Below are positions 8,770 through 17,356 of a DNA stretch of 18,979 bases, in pieces. Positions within the stretch are counted from its first letter, which is position 1; each line of letters opens with the position of its first letter. The position numbers and the translations under genes are program-made. Source of the stretch: Halieaceae bacterium (GTDB taxonomy: Bacteria > Pseudomonadota > Gammaproteobacteria > Pseudomonadales > Halieaceae); the NCBI GenBank assembly GCA_902518075.1, contig CABYEX010000027.1:1-18979 (forward strand), written 5' to 3'. The notes under the pieces were generated by a model. It was not told the origin of the DNA. It ran no database searches and was given only the letters and a program-made list of their open reading frames with translations.

Positions 8770-9852
8770 ATGGAAATGCTTCGAACCCCCGATAGCCAGT
8801 TTCAAAAGTTACCGGACTATCCCTTTGAGCCCCATTACACCGAGATCGACTCGGGTGATGGTGGCAGCCTCAGAGTTCATCACATTGATGAAGGCGATCG
8901 CGCAGCGCCGATCGTCCTGTGCCTGCACGGCCAGCCGAGTTGGAGCTACCTCTACCGCAAGATGGTGACGCTACTCGCTGCATCGGGATTGCGGGTGATC
9001 GCCCCGGACCTGCCGGGATACGGTAAATCAGACAAGCCCGCATCGCGCGAGGACTACAGCTACCAGCGACAGGTCGATTGGATGGGCAACTGGCTCGAGG
9101 CCAACGATTTCGGCGAAATCACCTTTTTTGGTCAGGACTGGGGTGGCCTCATTGGCCTTCGACTGGTGGTCGACCACCCCGATCGTTTTGCCCGGGTCGT
9201 AGTCGGTAACACCGGGCTACCTTTAAACGCCGACCTTGAGCAAGACATTGTCGACAAGGTCATGGCGTTCCGGCAGGACGGGCAGCGACTGAGTTTCCGC
9301 GATATGGCCTTCGCTTTATCGCGTTTGAGGAGTCTGGTTGATGAGCCCGACGCTTTCCCTATGGGTTTCGCTCACTGGCAAAAATTCTGCTGGAACACGG
9401 TAGATATGCCTGCCGGCTTTCTGATGGAGATGATGATCAATCGGCCTGCAACCTGGAAGGTCGCGCCGCGTGTGTTGCTGAATCGGTATCTGGGCACCGC
9501 CCTGCGTCCTATCACGCCATTAGGTCGCGCATATGAGGCGCCATTTCCCGATGCCTCTCACAAGATGGGTCCGCGCGCCATGCCCAGCCAGGTGCCGACG
9601 TTACCCACCGATCCTTCCCTTGAGGCGCAAAAAAAGGCCTGGGAGTTTTTCCTGCAATTCAACAAGCCGTTCCTCTGCCTCTTTACCGAGGATGACCCGG
9701 TGACACGTGGGGCGGAGAGGAGCTTTATCGGACGTGTGCCCGGCACAACAGGGCTGCCACATCAGATTTTTCCGCGCGGCGGTCACTTCCTGCAGGAGTC
9801 TCGTCACCGCGAATTGAGCGCGGCGATCAGTGAGTTGATCAGATCGACCTAG
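8770..9852 (+). CDS. Haloalkane dehalogenase, DhlA-type (HLD-I)
   Basis: 360 residues, an alpha/beta hydrolase that would hydrolyse carbon-halogen bonds to an alcohol plus halide. It begins MEMLRTPDSQFQKLPDYPF, the usual HLD-I opening. The nucleophile is Asp123 in GQDWGG, with Trp124 as halide-binding residue; Trp203 in GFAHWQKF matches the second halide Trp (DhlA Trp175, GFTAWKYD). The acid is Asp309 in TEDDPVTRG and the base His339 in GGHFLQE. The oxyanion segment reads HGQPSW rather than the usual HGEPTW. The distance from nucleophile to acid is 186 residues against 136 in DhlA, so about 50 residues are added around the cap domain, while acid-to-base spacing is almost unchanged. The ribosome site is weak; ATG at 8776 is an alternative. 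Natural substrate unknown. Confidence 0.92.
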   Translation: MEMLRTPDSQFQKLPDYPFEPHYTEIDSGDGGSLRVHHIDEGDRAAPIVLCLHGQPSWSYLYRKMVTLLAASGLRVIAPDLPGYGKSDKPASREDYSYQRQVDWMGNWLEANDFGEITFFGQDWGGLIGLRLVVDHPDRFARVVVGNTGLPLNADLEQDIVDKVMAFRQDGQRLSFRDMAFALSRLRSLVDEPDAFPMGFAHWQKFCWNTVDMPAGFLMEMMINRPATWKVAPRVLLNRYLGTALRPITPLGRAYEAPFPDASHKMGPRAMPSQVPTLPTDPSLEAQKKAWEFFLQFNKPFLCLFTEDDPVTRGAERSFIGRVPGTTGLPHQIFPRGGHFLQESRHRELSAAISELIRST

Positions 9853-10924: not shown

Positions 10925-11190
10925 GGTTTCTGATCTCCGCCACTCCGCACTCGAATTGCGATTGTTGGTGGTATGTCCGCTTCAGTCTAACAAATTACAG
11001 CCGTTTGCCCGTTTTCGGTCAAAATAGGCACGGTGTTTGCAGTGTTAATACTAAGGGTGCGCAGCGCAGCCACAAATCCGTGGTGTTCCTGCGGGCGTAG
11101 GTGCACTTGGCGTGCAAAGAAAGGGGGCGTTATCAGGATGGATAGCGTGACAATAACAACACTGGTTTAACATAGTGGACGAAGAACATT
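10925..11190. promoter_or_regulatory. Divergent control region of the glucosylglycerate operon
   Basis: The 266-base gap carries the promoter of the operon and of the patatin-like gene. Close to the operon start, GTGACA (11147-11152, 5/6 match to a -35) precedes CATAGT (11171-11176, 4/6 match to a -10) at 18 bases; TAACAT at 11168 is an overlapping alternative. Two inverted repeats lie upstream: TGCGC-A-GCGCA (11058-11068) and TGCAC-TTGGC-GTGCA (11102-11116), either of which could be an operator. The ribosome site before the kinase gene is weak. No small gene or RNA structure was recognised. Confidence 0.4.
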
Positions 11191-12129
11191 ATGGATGATG
11201 AACAAGACACCCGTGCGGCACTGCAAGCAGTGTTGGCAGAATTTATTCAAGAAGCGTCGTTGCCTGACAACGTCGCTTATAATTATATGAGGTGGTATGC
11301 CGGTGTAACCCGGAGTCTGGCGCAACGAGCGAAAACCGCCGACCTCGCGCCACTAGTGGGATTTAGCGGTTGTCAGGGCTCTGGAAAAAGTACGCTGGTA
11401 GCGCTCATGGCTAAGGTGATGCGCGAGTTCCACGGCGTCTATACCGTGGTGCTGTCTTTGGATGATTTTTACCTCACCAAAGCCGCGAGAGCAGCATTGG
11501 CGGAGTCGATTCACCCGCTGTTTGCCACGCGAGGGGTGCCGGGCACCCATGATCTGCCGCTGTTGAATGAGACGATTGCCGCGCTCCGCCAACCAAGGGC
11601 CGAGGGCACTGTTCCCGTGCCCGCATTCGACAAAGCCCTCGATGACCGCACCGAATTGGTGCATTGGCGCCAAGTGAGTGCGCCTATGCAGCTGATTTTC
11701 CTTGAAGGGTGGTGCGTTGGCCTCTCGCCTCAAAGTGAAAGCGAGTTGGAGGTGCCGATCAATCCGATGGAGGCTGAACAGGATCCGTCGTTGGTGTGGC
11801 GACGCGAGGTCAACCGGCAGCTCGCTACCGAATACGCGGATTTGTTTGGAAACTTGGATGCGCTGCTGTTGCTGCAGGCTCCCAGCTTTGATGCGGTATT
11901 CGAGTGGCGCTGGCAGCAGGAGCAGCGCCTATCCAAGCAGTTTCAGCAGGATCATCCTGACAGGCTCGATCCCACCATGAGTCGCTCGGAGGTGGCGGAC
12001 TTCATCCTGCACTATCAGCGCTTGACTGAGCATGCGCTGAAAACACTCCCTGATCGGGCTGACTTCCTGTGGGAACTGGCGACCGATCGCGCGGTCGAGC
12101 GCATGTGGTTGACGGAGGTCGCGGCATGA
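11191..12129 (+). CDS. D-glycerate kinase, P-loop GLYK-type
   Basis: 312 residues. The P-loop is GFSGCQGSGKST (Gly60, Lys66, Ser67), followed by a VVLSLDDFYLT acidic strand (Asp91, Asp92) and a third conserved block, LIFLEGWCVGL. This arrangement belongs to the P-loop kinase family of plant-type D-glycerate 3-kinase (GLYK) and relatives of YggC/pantothenate kinase. It differs from the GlxK and GckA folds of other bacterial glycerate kinases. It would phosphorylate D-glycerate with ATP to 3-phosphoglycerate in the cytoplasm. That fits the operon: the phosphorylase three genes downstream releases D-glycerate from glucosylglycerate. Its TGA overlaps the next gene's ATG as ATGA, which favours coupled translation. 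Family is clear; glycerate as the substrate is supported by context. Confidence 0.87.
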   Translation: MDDEQDTRAALQAVLAEFIQEASLPDNVAYNYMRWYAGVTRSLAQRAKTADLAPLVGFSGCQGSGKSTLVALMAKVMREFHGVYTVVLSLDDFYLTKAARAALAESIHPLFATRGVPGTHDLPLLNETIAALRQPRAEGTVPVPAFDKALDDRTELVHWRQVSAPMQLIFLEGWCVGLSPQSESELEVPINPMEAEQDPSLVWRREVNRQLATEYADLFGNLDALLLLQAPSFDAVFEWRWQQEQRLSKQFQQDHPDRLDPTMSRSEVADFILHYQRLTEHALKTLPDRADFLWELATDRAVERMWLTEVAA

Positions 12130-13004
12130 GCAGTGCGGTGATCTATACCGATCTCGATGGCACATTGCTGGACCATCACACCTACGCTTTCCACGAGGCG
12201 CTGGAAACCATCAAAGGACTGAAGGATCGTGGCATCCCGATTATTCCCTGCACGAGCAAAACCCGCCCAGAGACGGTGAGTCTGATGCAGGCCATGGGCA
12301 TTGATGGGCCCATGATCATCGAGAACGGCGCAGCTATCTGGGTGCCGCAGGATTGGGGTCTCGAGCGCCCCGAGGGCTCAGACAGTGACGCCGATGCCTG
12401 GTGCCATAGCTTCGGCCCCTCTCGCGGCATGATCCGCCGCCAGCTGGCCATTTTGAGCATCGAGTGGGGCAACCGTTACCAGTCCCTCTGTGACCTGTCC
12501 GACAAGCAGGTAGCTGCGGTAACGGGTCTGGATCTTGAGGGTGCGGCGCGGGCAAAGCAGCGCAAGCATTCCGAGACGCTGATCTGGTTGGGTACCCCCG
12601 CGGATCGCAAAGCATTTGCCGAGCAGATCGAGACCCTGGACATGCGGTGCCTGCAGGGCGGCCGCTTTGTTCACGTGCTGGCCTCGGGTGGTAAGGCGGA
12701 GGCAGTCAGCTGGCTGCATCGCAAGATCCGCACAGAGCGACCCGGGTGCGATGGGGCTATCAGCCTTTCGGCGGGCGACGCTGAGAATGATGTGGAGATG
12801 CTCGAGGTGACGGATATGGCGCTGTTGGTGCGATCCCCCGTGAACGAGCCGCCGACGGTGAGGCGCCAGGGTGGGTTGGTGATCAGCGATACCGAGGGTC
12901 CTGCGGGCTGGGCCGAAGGGATGGAAGTGCTGATTGAGCGAGTGGAAGAGGAGGAAGACCGTGGCCGACTTTTATCAAAACGGCACGATCACAACGCTGC
13001 ATAA
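12126..13004 (+). CDS. gpgP: Glucosyl-3-phosphoglycerate phosphatase, HAD-IIB MpgP/GpgP family
   Basis: 292 residues from the ATG that overlaps the kinase stop. HAD motifs in order are YTDLDGTLLD (nucleophile Asp9, acid Asp11), IIPCTSKTRPE (motif II), GGKAEAVSWL (motif III Lys) and LSAGDAENDVEML (motif IV). The region between II and III is the C2 cap of HAD-IIB enzymes. It is the mannosyl-3-phosphoglycerate phosphatase family, which also contains glucosyl-3-phosphoglycerate phosphatases. The enzyme removes the 3-phosphate to give glucosylglycerate. Placement directly before a GT81-like synthase identifies the glucosyl rather than the mannosyl substrate as likelier. An upstream in-frame extension to 12069 lies in the kinase gene and is discarded. 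The 3' end overlaps the synthase gene by 44 bases. Confidence 0.88.
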   Translation: MSSAVIYTDLDGTLLDHHTYAFHEALETIKGLKDRGIPIIPCTSKTRPETVSLMQAMGIDGPMIIENGAAIWVPQDWGLERPEGSDSDADAWCHSFGPSRGMIRRQLAILSIEWGNRYQSLCDLSDKQVAAVTGLDLEGAARAKQRKHSETLIWLGTPADRKAFAEQIETLDMRCLQGGRFVHVLASGGKAEAVSWLHRKIRTERPGCDGAISLSAGDAENDVEMLEVTDMALLVRSPVNEPPTVRRQGGLVISDTEGPAGWAEGMEVLIERVEEEEDRGRLLSKRHDHNAA

Positions 13005-14214
13005 TCTGGGGGAGCGCTCCACCTTAGAGTTGGAGCAGGACCTGCTGCAGTTCAGTGAGCGACGCTCTCTGGGTTTGATACTGCCGTCACTGTACTCAGA
13101 GATTGAAACGCCCGCGCTGCCCGCCATCATTCAGGAACTGAAATCGGTTCCCTATCTCTCGCAAATTGTGATTGGCCTCGATCGCGCAACCCAGGATGAG
13201 TACCAGCGCGCGTTGAGCTTCTTTGCCGATCTGCCGCAACATCATCGCGTGCTGTGGAACGACGGCCCCCGCTTAAAGGCTATTGACGCGCGCCTGCAGG
13301 ACGCGGGTCTCGCTCCACAGGAGCTCGGCAAGGGGCGCAACGTTTGGTACTGCATGGGCTATGCATTGGCCACCGGCCGCGCAGAGGCGATCGCCCTGCA
13401 TGACTGCGATATCCTGACCTACGACCGCAGCTTGCTTGCCCGGCTGATTTACCCGGTTGCCCATCCGCTCTTTGGTTACGAGTTTTGCAAGGGTTTTTAC
13501 CCTCGGGTCTCTGAGAACAAAATCAACGGCAGGGTTTGCAGGCTGCTGGTGACGCCTATGATCCGTGCGCTAAAGCGCATCGTCGGAGAGTCGCCGTACC
13601 TCAATTATCTGGACAGCTATCGGTACATCCTCGCGGGTGAGTTTGCGTTCCGAAAGCGTCTGCTCGGTGATCTGAGAATTCCCACCGACTGGGGTCTCGA
13701 GATCGGCGTGGTCTCGGAGGTCTACCGCAGCAACAGCAACAAGCAAATTTGCCAGGTCGACATCGCCGACAACTATGACCACAAGCATCAGGATCTGTCG
13801 CTAGATGATCAGAACTCTGGCCTGTCGCGCATGTCACTCGATATCGCACGATCGCTTTATCGCAAGCTGGCGATTCAGGGCACGGTGTTCAATCAGGAAA
13901 CGTTCCGGACCTTGAAAGCCACCTACTATCGGATGGCGCTCGATTTGATCGAGACTTACCGCAACGACGCGATCATGAATGGGTTGAGTTTTGACATTCA
14001 TAGGGAAGAGGAGGCGATCGAGCTGTTCGCCGAGAACATTCTCGAGGCCGGCGTGCAGTTTTTGGAGCGCTCTTCCGAGGTGCCCTTTATTCCCACCTGG
14101 AACCGGGTATTCAGTGCCATGCCCCACATCTTTGACGAATTGATCGCAGCGGTAGAGGCCGATCACGAGGAATTTTCTACCGCGTCTGAGTTGCCAAAAG
14201 TCGCCCGGGGATGA
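12961..14214 (+). CDS. gpgS: Glucosyl-3-phosphoglycerate synthase, GT81-like
   Basis: 417 residues from GTG at 12961, chosen because a strong ribosome site (GAGGAGG) ends about 6 bases upstream and the protein then starts ADFYQNGTITTLHNL as in relatives. A TTG at 12934 would be longer but lacks such a site. The GT-A domain has LILPSLYSEIE, a nucleotide-binding section with VIGLDRATQDEY, RVLWNDGPRL, GKGRNVWYCMGYALA and the metal-binding DCD (Asp148, Asp150) in ALHDCDILTY. Later motifs are YEFCKGFYPRV, LDSYRYILAGEFAF, DWGLEIGVVSEVYR and QVDIADNYDHKHQ. The enzyme transfers glucose from an NDP-glucose to 3-phosphoglycerate, the first step of glucosylglycerate synthesis. The ATGA overlap with the phosphorylase gene couples synthesis and breakdown. 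Glucose versus mannose donor is inferred from family. Confidence 0.9.
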   Translation: MADFYQNGTITTLHNLGERSTLELEQDLLQFSERRSLGLILPSLYSEIETPALPAIIQELKSVPYLSQIVIGLDRATQDEYQRALSFFADLPQHHRVLWNDGPRLKAIDARLQDAGLAPQELGKGRNVWYCMGYALATGRAEAIALHDCDILTYDRSLLARLIYPVAHPLFGYEFCKGFYPRVSENKINGRVCRLLVTPMIRALKRIVGESPYLNYLDSYRYILAGEFAFRKRLLGDLRIPTDWGLEIGVVSEVYRSNSNKQICQVDIADNYDHKHQDLSLDDQNSGLSRMSLDIARSLYRKLAIQGTVFNQETFRTLKATYYRMALDLIETYRNDAIMNGLSFDIHREEEAIELFAENILEAGVQFLERSSEVPFIPTWNRVFSAMPHIFDELIAAVEADHEEFSTASELPKVARG

Positions 14215-15947
14215 TAAGCGCGCTATCCCAGCGGCTGCGGGAGCACCTCGCCGCGGTCTATGGTGATGCTGTGTCAGACGGCGCGCTGGACGGCTGGGTT
14301 GACCGGTTACTCGACGCCGCGCAGCTTAGTGCAGCACAGTCCCCACCTCCGGCGCACCGTAACCTTTGGGACGAGACCGATGTGGCGGTGATCACCTATG
14401 GCGACTCACTATTGCATGGTGAGGAGGCGCCGCTCAAGACCCTCCACGGTTTTTTGACGCAACGATTGGGCCCACTGGTGAGCTGGGTGCACGTGCTACC
14501 CTTCCACCCCTGGACCTCAGATGATGGCTTTGCGGTGCTTGACTACTCGAGCGTCAATGAGGCGCTCGGCACCTGGTCGGATATCACCCGGTTGGGTGTC
14601 GATTATCGGCTGATGGCGGACCTCGTGCTCAATCACTGCTCAAGTCGGTCGGCCTGGTTTGAGAACTTTCGTAAGGGCGAGGCCCCCGGCGACGATTACT
14701 TTTTCGCCCCGGACGAAACCTTCGACACCAGCCACGTGGTCAGGCCCCGGACCTCGCCGCTACTCAATGTTGTTGCCACGGAGCAGGGCGAGCGGGCTGT
14801 GTGGTGCACCTTCAGTCCAGATCAAGTGGATTTCAACTTTGCTAACCCCGCGGTGGTTGTGGAGTTCGTTAGCATCATCCGCGACTTACTCGATGCCGGG
14901 GTGCGGGTGTTCAGGCTCGATGCTGTGGCGTTCCTGTGGAAGGAGAGCGGCACTACCTGTATGAATCTGCCCCAGACGCATGAATTGATCAGGCTGTTTC
15001 GCCTGATTATCGAGTGCGCCCAGGCTGATGCGATCGTTATCACCGAGACTAATGTCCCCAACCGCGAGAACCTGTCTTACTTTGGCAATGCCAATGAGGC
15101 GCACGGCATTTATAATTTCTCCCTGCCGCCGCTCTTGGTGCACGCGTTGGTCACCGGCAACAGCCGCTACCTCTCGACCTGGATGATGAGCATGCCGCCG
15201 GCACAGGACGGCACCATCTATTTCAACTTTATTGCCTCCCACGACGGCATCGGGTTGCGCCCGGTGGAGGGCTTGCTGAAGCAGGCGGAGGTCGATGAGC
15301 TTTTAGCTACGATGGAGCAGTTCGGTGGTCGCGTCTCGTGGCGGCAGGCCGCCGACAGCGAAGCCAAACCCTATGAGATCAACATCGCCTTGAGAGACGC
15401 GCTCCAGGGCACCACCCGCGGCAAGGATGAGTGGGGGCTCGAGCGCTTCCTGTGTGCGCATGCCATCATGCTGGGGCTCGAGGGCGTGCCCGCTTTTTAT
15501 ATCCACTCCCTGCTCGGTACCCGTAATGACCTCGAGCGTCTGGCTCACACCAGCCATAACCGGTCTATCAATCGGCATCAGTGGGAGCAGAGCGCATTGT
15601 CGCGCGCTCTCGATTGCAGCGGGGCGGACCACCACGCCGTCTTTGAGGCGCTAAAGCACCTCATTGCCCTACGCAAGGCGCAGCCGGCATTCCACCCTAA
15701 CGCGACCCAATTCACCCTGCACTTGGGTACTGAGCTGTTCGGGTTTTGGCGACAGTCACTCGACCGGCGTCAGAGCCTGTTCTGCGTGCACAACCTCACC
15801 AATGAAGAGCAGGTCCTGCCGCTGAGCCGCCTGAACCTCGTGGTCAATCATCGTTGGAGGGAGCTCATCTCCGGGGCGCCCGTCGAGGAGGAATTACCGG
15901 AGTGGACCCTGACTCCCTACCAAACGCTGTGGATAACCAACGGCTGA
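14211..15947 (+). CDS. GH13_18 phosphorylase, probable glucosylglycerate phosphorylase
   Basis: 578 residues of a GH13 (beta/alpha)8 barrel of the sucrose-phosphorylase subfamily. Motifs are SWVHVLPFHPWTSDDGFAVLDY, LMADLVLNHCSS, VFRLDAVAFLWKE (nucleophile Asp237), ITETNVPNREN (acid/base Glu279) and IASHDGIGLRP (transition-state Asp345). Subfamily members split an alpha-glucoside with phosphate: sucrose, sucrose 6-phosphate, glucosylglycerol or glucosylglycerate. With the D-glycerate kinase, GpgP and GpgS genes in the same operon, glucosylglycerate is the likeliest substrate, giving alpha-glucose 1-phosphate and D-glycerate. About 80 extra residues precede the barrel compared with short sucrose phosphorylases of roughly 490-500 residues. 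ATG overlaps the GpgS stop. Substrate specificity is inferred from context, not from a diagnostic residue. Confidence 0.88.
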   Translation: MISALSQRLREHLAAVYGDAVSDGALDGWVDRLLDAAQLSAAQSPPPAHRNLWDETDVAVITYGDSLLHGEEAPLKTLHGFLTQRLGPLVSWVHVLPFHPWTSDDGFAVLDYSSVNEALGTWSDITRLGVDYRLMADLVLNHCSSRSAWFENFRKGEAPGDDYFFAPDETFDTSHVVRPRTSPLLNVVATEQGERAVWCTFSPDQVDFNFANPAVVVEFVSIIRDLLDAGVRVFRLDAVAFLWKESGTTCMNLPQTHELIRLFRLIIECAQADAIVITETNVPNRENLSYFGNANEAHGIYNFSLPPLLVHALVTGNSRYLSTWMMSMPPAQDGTIYFNFIASHDGIGLRPVEGLLKQAEVDELLATMEQFGGRVSWRQAADSEAKPYEINIALRDALQGTTRGKDEWGLERFLCAHAIMLGLEGVPAFYIHSLLGTRNDLERLAHTSHNRSINRHQWEQSALSRALDCSGADHHAVFEALKHLIALRKAQPAFHPNATQFTLHLGTELFGFWRQSLDRRQSLFCVHNLTNEEQVLPLSRLNLVVNHRWRELISGAPVEEELPEWTLTPYQTLWITNG

Positions 15948-15993: not shown

Positions 15994-17356
15994 ATGAACC
16001 TAGTGCTCATTCGACTTATGCGTACCGCGTTGAATCAGGCGATGGCCGCCGCTCTGTTTTGCGTCACGCTGATGTCGCCCGTCTGGGCCTGGTCCGACCA
16101 CGCGAGCCTCGTCTGGCCCTTGCTCAGGGGTCAGCCTGAGCTGATTCACCAGAGTGTGGCGGCCGAGCCGCTCGACGCTTTTTTGGCCGCTGAGCAAGCG
16201 GGTATTGCAGCGACCCTTGAAGCCGTGGAGTCGTGGTCTGCTGCAACCATCGAGCACTACCCGCCGACCCCCGACGAGCTGCGCTGGGGTGAGGATCACG
16301 CGCCCACCGCGGAGCACTTTTTCGCGGCGATCAGGGTCAATCCAATGCTGCCATATCGCCTCTACGTGGATCTCTCCCCCGAGCGTGCCCAGCCGGCGCA
16401 GCCACCGCTGGCCTGGTCCGAGCTGAGCTTTTTGGGGGGGCGGCACCTCGCAGCTGGCGGCGCGCTACTGGGCGTTGGCGCCCGGCGAATCCGTATCGAT
16501 CGCGGAGGTGATTGCCAGTGCCAATGACGAGCCCGATTTCGGAATGGACATCGGGCTCTTTGCGGATAACGGCACCGACTTCGGCCGGCGCTATGGGTTT
16601 GGTATCCAACCCTTTGGGAACCCTAACCTCGAGTACAGCTCCCAAGCGCCCTTTCACATGGGCTTTTACCACCTCGACTGGCTGACACGGATGGCACAGC
16701 CCTCGTTGCTGCGGACTTACCCCCTGTGGCGGATCGCACTGTTCGGCGAGCTAGCCGAGCTGGCTTTTAGCACCGGGCATGACTATTGGGGCTGGCGCTT
16801 TCTCGGCTGGGGACTTCACTACGTCGGAGATCTCACCCAGCCGTATCATGCAATACCGCTGCCCGGTATCGACACAGTCGATGCGCTATGGTCGGTAGTA
16901 AAGGGCAGGACAGGAGAGCTCGTGCAGTTGGTCTCCAACCGGCATGGCGTGATCGAGTCATACCAGTACCAGCGGCTGACCCGCGCACTAGAAGCCCGGC
17001 AGTGGTCAGTGCCACTGCTCAATGCGATATCTGATTATCCGGATACCACCGATGTGGCATACGAATCCTTTGTTATGGCTTTGACCGCGGACTCAGTAGC
17101 GGCCGCGGCCGACTTCGACGCGGCCATCGAGTACAATGTGCCAGCTCGGTTTGTCAGCGACCCCGACTTTGAGTGGACGGGGTCAGGCTTTGAGCAATCG
17201 ATCGTGCAACGGGTTGCCGATGAACAGGGCGAGCCCGCTATCGCAGACCTCGATGCCGCGCTGATCGTGCAGCTCGCGCGCTTCTCGGCGGTCGCCAGCC
17301 GCTGGATTGCGCGCGGCCGGGTAGTGGAGCTTCCCTTGCAGGGGGAAAGCCCATGA
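15994..17356 (+). pseudogene. Secreted zinc phospholipase C / S1-P1-nuclease-like protein, frameshifted
   Basis: Two adjacent frames form one protein. Frame one (15994 to about 16440) opens with a signal peptide and its cleavage site VWA, leaving Trp33 as mature N-terminus before SDHASLVW. After a run of T5G7 (16429-16440) similarity continues one frame later: LAARYWALAPGESVSIAEV, DEPDFGMDIG, SQAPFHMGFYH, then the metal-type motif HYVGDLTQPYH (bases 16817-16849). Removing one G gives a single 453-residue protein. The Trp at the mature N-terminus and H-x3-D-x5-H match the zinc site of bacterial phospholipase C and P1-type nucleases (Trp1, His118, Asp122, His128 in the Bacillus enzyme). The family would cut phosphodiesters outside the membrane. 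As sequenced the gene encodes no full product; a homopolymer sequencing error is possible. It lies 46 bases after the phosphorylase gene. Confidence 0.75.
16429..16440 (+). other. T5G7 homopolymer at the frameshift
   Basis: TTTTTGGGGGGG, where the upstream frame (..SFLGG) and the downstream frame (..GGTSQLAARYW) meet. A six-G version would read FLGGGTSQLAARYW in one frame. Confidence 0.8.

Follow-up and report, generated by a model that had tools for sequence, protein, structure and literature searches.

The 18,979-nucleotide stretch of DNA analysed here (contig CABYEX010000027.1 from a Halieaceae bacterium, "the window" below) carries an operon of four genes on its forward strand, positions 11191-15947. 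Judged from sequence, its products are likely both to build up glucosylglycerate (GGA), a compatible solute, and to recycle it, with the phosphorylase as the probable gate between the two directions. The four predicted products are a glycerate kinase of the GLYK type, a glucosyl-3-phosphoglycerate phosphatase (GpgP), a glucosyl-3-phosphoglycerate synthase (GpgS) and a glucosylglycerate phosphorylase (GGaP). GpgS converts nucleoside diphosphate (NDP)-glucose and 3-phosphoglycerate to glucosyl-3-phosphoglycerate and NDP, and GpgP hydrolyses this product with water to GGA and inorganic phosphate (Pi). GGaP splits GGA with Pi into glucose 1-phosphate and glycerate, and GLYK uses ATP to turn glycerate into 3-phosphoglycerate, releasing ADP.

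The four open reading frames (ORFs), 11191-12129, 12126-13004, 12961-14214 and 14211-15947, overlap by 4, 44 and 4 bases on one strand, which confirms an earlier note on this DNA that had described them as joined by stop/start overlaps. Both 4-base overlaps, kinase/phosphatase at 12126-12129 and synthase/phosphorylase at 14211-14214 (+), read ATGA; the latter is also present in L001-L004 and L006-L008 of the related loci (L numbers) discussed below, with a short gap instead in L010 and L011. The 44-base phosphatase/synthase overlap and the ribosome-binding-like GGAGGAAG together take up 12950-13004 (+), the synthase starting at a GTG (12961) that is preceded by GGAGGAAG and lies 44 bases within the phosphatase gene. 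The longest ORF for the synthase begins at TTG 12934, yet the conserved start of its homologues, M[GA]DF[YH]QNG, maps to 12961, and this position was therefore taken as the start. Fifteen gene comparisons with four relatives (three genes for L004, whose GGaP gene is truncated where the contig ends) gave ratios of nonsynonymous to synonymous substitution (dN/dS) of 0.025-0.207, indicating purifying selection on all four genes.

The phosphorylase (14211-15947, +, 578 amino acids) is assigned as GGaP (EC 2.4.1.352) of family GH13_18 from its GH13_18 relatives in the PDB and from motifs. GGaPs are described as having a (T/S)ETN motif that contains the acid/base Glu, and a loop-A Glu and an Asn that bind glycerate; loop A reads N(L/V)D(I/L/V)YQ in sucrose phosphorylase and VGAIYQ in the glucosylglycerol enzyme (PMC7178133; here and below, papers are cited from excerpts). 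The window protein has TETN at residues 278-281 and a loop A of AKPYE that contains the Glu, and both the sucrose and the glucosylglycerol motifs are absent. In an alignment of 110 GGaP rows, with Escherichia coli YcjM (L081) included and the same HTCC2080 gene counted twice, D237, N281, D345 and E389 are present in every row and E279 in 109. YcjM and the Meiothermus taiwanensis protein thus share E389 and N281, which, by a numbering match taken from the motif description, would be the glycerate-binding Glu383 and Asn275 of M. silvanus. Against the sucrose phosphorylase model TIGR03852 the protein scores 183.9 bits, under the cut-off of 334.4, and GGA is its probable substrate. Elsewhere in the alignment, 14 of the 110 GGaPs (L031, L035, L037-L039, L044, L047, L050, L055, L058, L060, L066, L067 and L073) have CENN, CECN or CESN in place of TETN, L111 has VEAN and L054 has TDTN; these are possible specificity or regulation variants.

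The synthase (12961-14214, +, 417 amino acids from the GTG) is identified as GpgS by NCBIfam model NF040724 (GpgS_Meth), phmmer and predicted fold. Its NF040724 score of 344.4 bits (E 7.7e-103), under the cut-off of 700, places it in a branch related to GpgS_Meth but outside that equivalog; phmmer matched it to M. hassiacum GpgS with E 4.4e-05, and a Pfam scan gave no family. With its AlphaFold2 model (mean predicted local distance difference test, pLDDT, 80.1) as the query, rows 1 to 35 of the Foldseek output were all mycobacterial GpgS, three of them titled just 'mycobacterial protein' (E 3e-12 to 2e-10; template modelling score by query length 0.44-0.49; about 280-300 of 417 residues aligned, in up to 319 columns). 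The DCD motif, with D148 and D150 invariant in 22 sequences, aligns with DSD in the M. hassiacum enzyme. Model and alignment together point to the GT-A fold and acidic metal motif of GpgS.

The phosphatase (12126-13004, +, 292 amino acids) exceeds the cut-off of TIGR01486 (219.6 bits against 164.75) and scores 258.6 bits with the equivalog model NF001218, under its cut-off of 362. Its PDB matches include 1xvi (E 1.6e-32) and 3ztw (E 2.1e-29), with which its HAD motifs DLDGTLLD and GDAEND align. Subfamily score and motifs mark it as a probable HAD-IIB phosphatase of the GpgP/MPGP type; the choice of glucosyl over mannosyl specificity comes from the partner synthase and not from the phosphatase family match.

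For the kinase (11191-12129, +, 312 amino acids), homology, fold and P-loop all fit a D-glycerate 3-kinase of the GLYK type, and such kinases phosphorylate D-glycerate to 3-phosphoglycerate. The best solved relatives found by phmmer in the PDB are the GLYK entries 7xpc (E 4.4e-21) and 6ckg (E 1e-19). Foldseek with the AlphaFold2 model (pLDDT 93.2) again ranked 7xpc first (E 6.8e-19), followed by 6ckg and yeast 1odf (YGR205w), with pantothenate kinases behind. The P-loop G60-Q-G-x-G-K-x-T68 and an RGVPGTH motif are invariant in 21 sequences; the Pfam scan gave no family, and NCBIfam P-loop kinase models scored far under their cut-offs. Within the operon, the kinase varies most: that of L001 (4987-5919) is 65% identical to the window's 11191-12129, against 94-95% for synthase and phosphorylase, and L010 and L011 have no kinase in the operon. 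The enzyme assignments of the earlier note thus hold, on sequence evidence for all four proteins and on predicted folds as well for kinase and synthase, and so does its loop back to 3-phosphoglycerate, as far as the family of the kinase predicts its product.

Acting together, GpgS would couple NDP-glucose with 3-phosphoglycerate, GpgP would strip the phosphate to yield GGA, GGaP would phosphorolyse GGA to glucose 1-phosphate and D-glycerate, and the kinase would regenerate 3-phosphoglycerate, joint production of all four being presumably fixed by the gene overlaps. A full circle would convert NDP-glucose, ATP and H2O to glucose 1-phosphate, NDP and ADP, and regeneration of NDP-glucose would take one further nucleoside triphosphate, via an enzyme outside the window. 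The cycle had been called complete in the earlier note. This is apt for the glycerate arm, but the step from glucose 1-phosphate to NDP-glucose is absent from the window: a family scan of nine ORFs around the operon gave no nucleotidyltransferase, so that the operon does not encode a closed GGA cycle that includes NDP-glucose formation.

Since the full circle consumes NDP-glucose and ATP, it would have to be gated. The most likely gate is the phosphorylase: high salt or ion concentrations would restrain GGaP and let GGA accumulate, and a fall would release the enzyme, so that the pool drains with the energy of the glucosyl-phosphate bond kept. That GGaP works as a valve is likely by analogy with a sister enzyme, the Marinobacter glucosylglycerol phosphorylase (GGP), which is slightly activated by low salt and strongly inhibited at 0.2 M or more, and which lowered the salt-induced glucosylglycerol pool when expressed in Synechocystis (PMC10873239).

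The distribution of the genes is consistent with a link between synthesis and breakdown. In a sample of 185 Gammaproteobacteria, the class of HTCC2080, GGaP was found in 29 genomes, GpgS in 28 and both in 27, with GpgS in one of the 156 genomes without GGaP (Fisher p 5e-29; the tests carry no correction for kinship, genome incompleteness or E-value limits). At least one of three glycerate kinase families accompanies GGaP in 28 of 29 genomes, compared with 85 of 156 others (p 3e-6), and GLYK alone is enriched (12/29 vs 12/156). The three families are unrelated and occur in 24 (GLYK), 65 (PF13660) and 24 (PF02595) of the 185 genomes, with overlaps of 0 where 8.4, 3.1 and 8.4 were expected for the three pairs. 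Of the GGaP genomes with the respective kinase, 11 of 12 (GLYK), 3 of 6 (PF02595; genomes G092, G093 and G218) and, by position, 0 of 10 (PF13660) have it in the GpgP/GpgS cluster. Kinase position had also been considered as a test for a 3-phosphate versus a 2-phosphate product; it was dropped because of the three clustered PF02595 kinases, a family that we take to form 2-phosphoglycerate. Forty GGaP genomes were also chosen from the related loci, 35 of them for having no kinase in the retrieved stretch, and 37 have a kinase of one of the three families somewhere.

Among the related loci, of which the best 80 of 186 relatives were kept, the nearest GGaPs come from Luminiphilus and other Halieaceae, and those of the best six are 94-96% identical to the window protein apart from two, at 84% and 93%. 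Phosphatase, synthase and phosphorylase share one strand in 71 of the 80 loci; in the other nine the contig begins within or just before the synthase. All four genes are present in 25, and the kinase, where it occurs, lies ahead of the phosphatase, or behind the phosphorylase in L056, L074 and L075. In 19 of the 80 loci synthase and phosphorylase are fused in one frame, the complete ones measuring about 990-1008 amino acids (that of L078 is truncated by the contig), and the carriers include the isolates Rubritalea marina, Lentisphaera marina and Coraliomargarita sp. SDUM461004. The 18 complete fusions form one group (Shimodaira-Hasegawa-like approximate likelihood ratio, SH-aLRT, support 100) in a GGaP tree of 110 domains that was built by a quick method and is unrooted, the midpoint root serving for drawing only. 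This clade spans Verrucomicrobiota, Planctomycetota, Lentisphaerota and Hydrogenedentota, and genome samples of the first two contain the full-length fusion in 13 of 240 and 2 of 246 cases, respectively.

Kinase-phosphatase fusions are encoded by L036 (Lentisphaera), L083 (Pseudoalteromonas), L096 and L097; in the order to which G179 belongs, 9 of 197 genomes have one, and one more has a copy with an internal stop. In L036, the loop is encoded by two proteins, because both kinase + phosphatase and synthase + phosphorylase are fused. L118 has a PF02595 glycerate kinase fused to a GalU domain (TIGR01099 cut-off exceeded), which, by these family matches, joins both steps that would take up the two GGaP products. 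GalU also lies 3' of the phosphorylase in L097, where the row reads kinase-phosphatase, synthase, phosphorylase, GalU, and 3' of the phosphatase in L084; altogether it stands beside or within the module in 3 of 128 sequences searched (L084, L097, L118). A phosphatase-synthase fusion was found in none of the 128 sequences examined. Gene adjacency would account for the fusions most simply; adjacency also links phosphatase and synthase, yet fusion of this sole consecutive pair was not observed. Three candidates were rejected in this survey: the long kinase of L118 as a kinase-phosphatase fusion (Pfam gave kinase + nucleotidyltransferase), L046 as a fusion (an overlap of different frames), and a 767-770-amino-acid upstream gene of five loci as a GGA gene, which in L058, the one scanned, is a molybdopterin dehydrogenase subunit.

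Several observations oppose or weaken the reading as a gated cycle. The kinase is present in only 26 of the 80 loci, and in HTCC2080 (L010) it lies outside the operon, elsewhere in the genome. One of the 29 gammaproteobacterial GGaP genomes (G048) and three of the 40 chosen ones have no kinase match, and two of the 40 combine two kinase families (one by a weak and partial match). A glycerate kinase also occurs in 54% of the genomes that lack GGaP (85/156). Taken singly, PF13660 is not enriched with GGaP (10/29 vs 55/156), and enrichment of PF02595 falls short of significance (p 0.15). Among the 46 matching genomes of Verrucomicrobiota, 32 have GGaP without this GpgS (at E 1e-80), and only 2 of 33 matching Planctomycetota genomes have the fusion. 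GGaP and GpgS are co-directional in no more than 13 of the 29 genomes, convergent in 11 and on different contigs in 3, with no GpgS match in 2. Joint production of synthesis and breakdown enzymes, asserted in the earlier note, is therefore mainly a trait of the window's clade and not a general rule. In the GGaP tree, a single group (support 97) of 90 rows takes in every fusion and 72 of 73 co-directional rows, all but L115. As for the gate itself, no glucosylglycerol was detected in Marinobacter itself, so that the precedent does not come from a native host (PMC10873239), and in the GGA operon of Prochlorococcus synthesis transcripts go down while recycling transcripts go up (PMC11631117). Control at the transcript level is therefore possible, and the need for post-translational control, which the earlier note had postulated, is likely from the analogy with salt-inhibited GGP but at odds with Prochlorococcus.

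The strongest competitor to an ion-gated phosphorylase is a cycle with no dedicated gate, in which the four enzymes are made together and mass action decides. GpgS would be active when 3-phosphoglycerate and NDP-glucose are plentiful, GGaP would drain GGA at high Pi and low sugar phosphates, and GGA would chiefly be a nitrogen-free store of carbon and energy. Phosphorolysis conserves bond energy and both products enter glycolysis directly, no regulator gene adjoins the operon in the window, and GGA has been discussed as a carbon source in Prochlorococcus (PMC11631117). However, the strong salt response of GGP (PMC10873239) does not fit, and simultaneous activity would waste ATP, a concern that has also been raised for ectoine producers (PMC5924519). 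On balance we consider this explanation somewhat improbable, though worth serious attention.

A bolder form of the gated cycle is more doubtful still. In the window's clade, synthesis and breakdown might have been locked together stepwise, from convergent genes through co-directional overlapping genes to one polypeptide, fixing their stoichiometry and giving an ion-gated push-pull valve. The fused pairs (synthase with phosphorylase, kinase with phosphatase) being non-consecutive steps, the fusions would on this view serve a fixed ratio and not the transfer of an intermediate. Equally tentatively, a standing cycle gated at the protein level would then set the pool, with speed paid for in ATP. 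The order of the stages is a hypothesis, taken from the unrooted tree.

It is unlikely that the kinase serves to convert outside, for example algal, glycerate to 3-phosphoglycerate for GpgS, with closure of the loop incidental. Glycerate kinases do have general roles, as their presence in 85 of 156 genomes without GGaP suggests, but their enrichment with GGaP (28/29), the position of GLYK in the GpgP/GpgS cluster (11/12) and the kinase-GalU fusion, which would unite the salvage steps for both GGaP products, argue otherwise. Very improbable, in our view, is a synthetic role of GGaP in the cell, as a second, UTP-free route from glucose 1-phosphate and glycerate to GGA: Pi in cells is normally far above glucose 1-phosphate, which favours breakdown, and a kinase of the same operon that withdraws glycerate would oppose the route. 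The reaction is reversible and has been exploited for synthesis in vitro (PMC11009771). Finally, that the GH13_18 enzyme has sucrose or glucosylglycerol as its substrate and is in the operon by coincidence is barely credible: its top database labels are sucrose phosphorylase models and the PDB comparison gave no solved GGaP structure, but TETN and the loop-A Glu are present, the rival loop-A motifs are absent, and GGaP co-occurs near-perfectly with GpgS.

Upstream of the operon, an alignment of six Luminiphilus-type sequences shows two conserved blocks, 11021-11041, which may be part of a divergent gene, and 11120-11190 (+), directly upstream and a leader or promoter candidate. The region contains a weak sigma-70-like match (11147-11176, 9/12). 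The promoter scan gave 6 hits against 1.8 expected, none useful for the operon, terminators were at shuffle level, and an Rfam scan of the window found no riboswitch or known RNA at the operon at gathering scores. Downstream, ORFs 15994-16527 and 16475-17356 overlap in different frames and correspond to residues 1-149 and 145-453 of an intact 453-amino-acid ORF of L006, which is also intact in L001; the frame change is either real or an assembly error, and Pfam gave no family for the pair. ORF 8770-9852 encodes a haloalkane dehalogenase-like alpha/beta hydrolase (NF002043, 368 bits, above the cut-off of 265), the match spanning residues 1-359 of a longer protein.

That GGaP is almost always accompanied by GpgS and by a glycerate kinase from one of the three unrelated families, and that opposing enzymes are fused in nature, suggests that in these marine bacteria breakdown is part of the production machinery and not a feeding pathway. 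Natural fusions, such as those of Rubritalea marina and Lentisphaera marina, would be single-protein test objects for how cells avoid, or exploit, futile cycling of a compatible solute.

The gene set and the idea of a pool regulator are already in print (PMC7178133, PMC11631117). GpgS, GpgP or a glycerate kinase is often encoded alongside GGaP, for which regulation of the pool has been proposed, the in vivo role being called unconfirmed (PMC7178133, summarising Franceus 2017). The neighbourhoods described there hold the same four functions, and the excerpt does not mention fusions; in the window all four genes overlap and the kinase is of the GLYK type. The fusions, the exchange of kinase families and the split between convergent and co-directional genes may be new: we found no description in the open-licence papers searched, and do not claim their absence from print.

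Compared with the window, the E. coli ycjM cluster encodes a GGaP of the same family and with the same motifs, about 38% identical to the window protein, but is catabolic, with an ABC transporter and no adjoining GpgS or GpgP. Halomonas elongata both makes and degrades its compatible solute ectoine in one cell and raises the same question of a futile cycle; the chemistry differs, and a dedicated regulator, EnuR, serves many of the catabolic clusters (PMC5924519). In Marinobacter, as in the window, a GH13_18 phosphorylase (the salt-inhibited GGP) adjoins the synthesis gene of its own solute, GGPPS; unlike in the window, the solute is glycerol-based, the synthase is fused to the phosphatase and not to the phosphorylase, and the excerpt mentions no kinase (PMC10873239). 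The cyanobacterium Synechococcus PCC 7002 has its glucosylglycerate genes at the consecutive tags A2021-A2023, A2021 presumably being GpgS (PMC10873239). Prochlorococcus NATL2A resembles the window in having, in one operon, the synthesis genes and those that recycle GGA to glucose 1-phosphate and 3-phosphoglycerate, and differs in being a cyanobacterium, in an adjacent transporter gene and in the opposite changes of its synthesis and recycling transcripts (PMC11631117).

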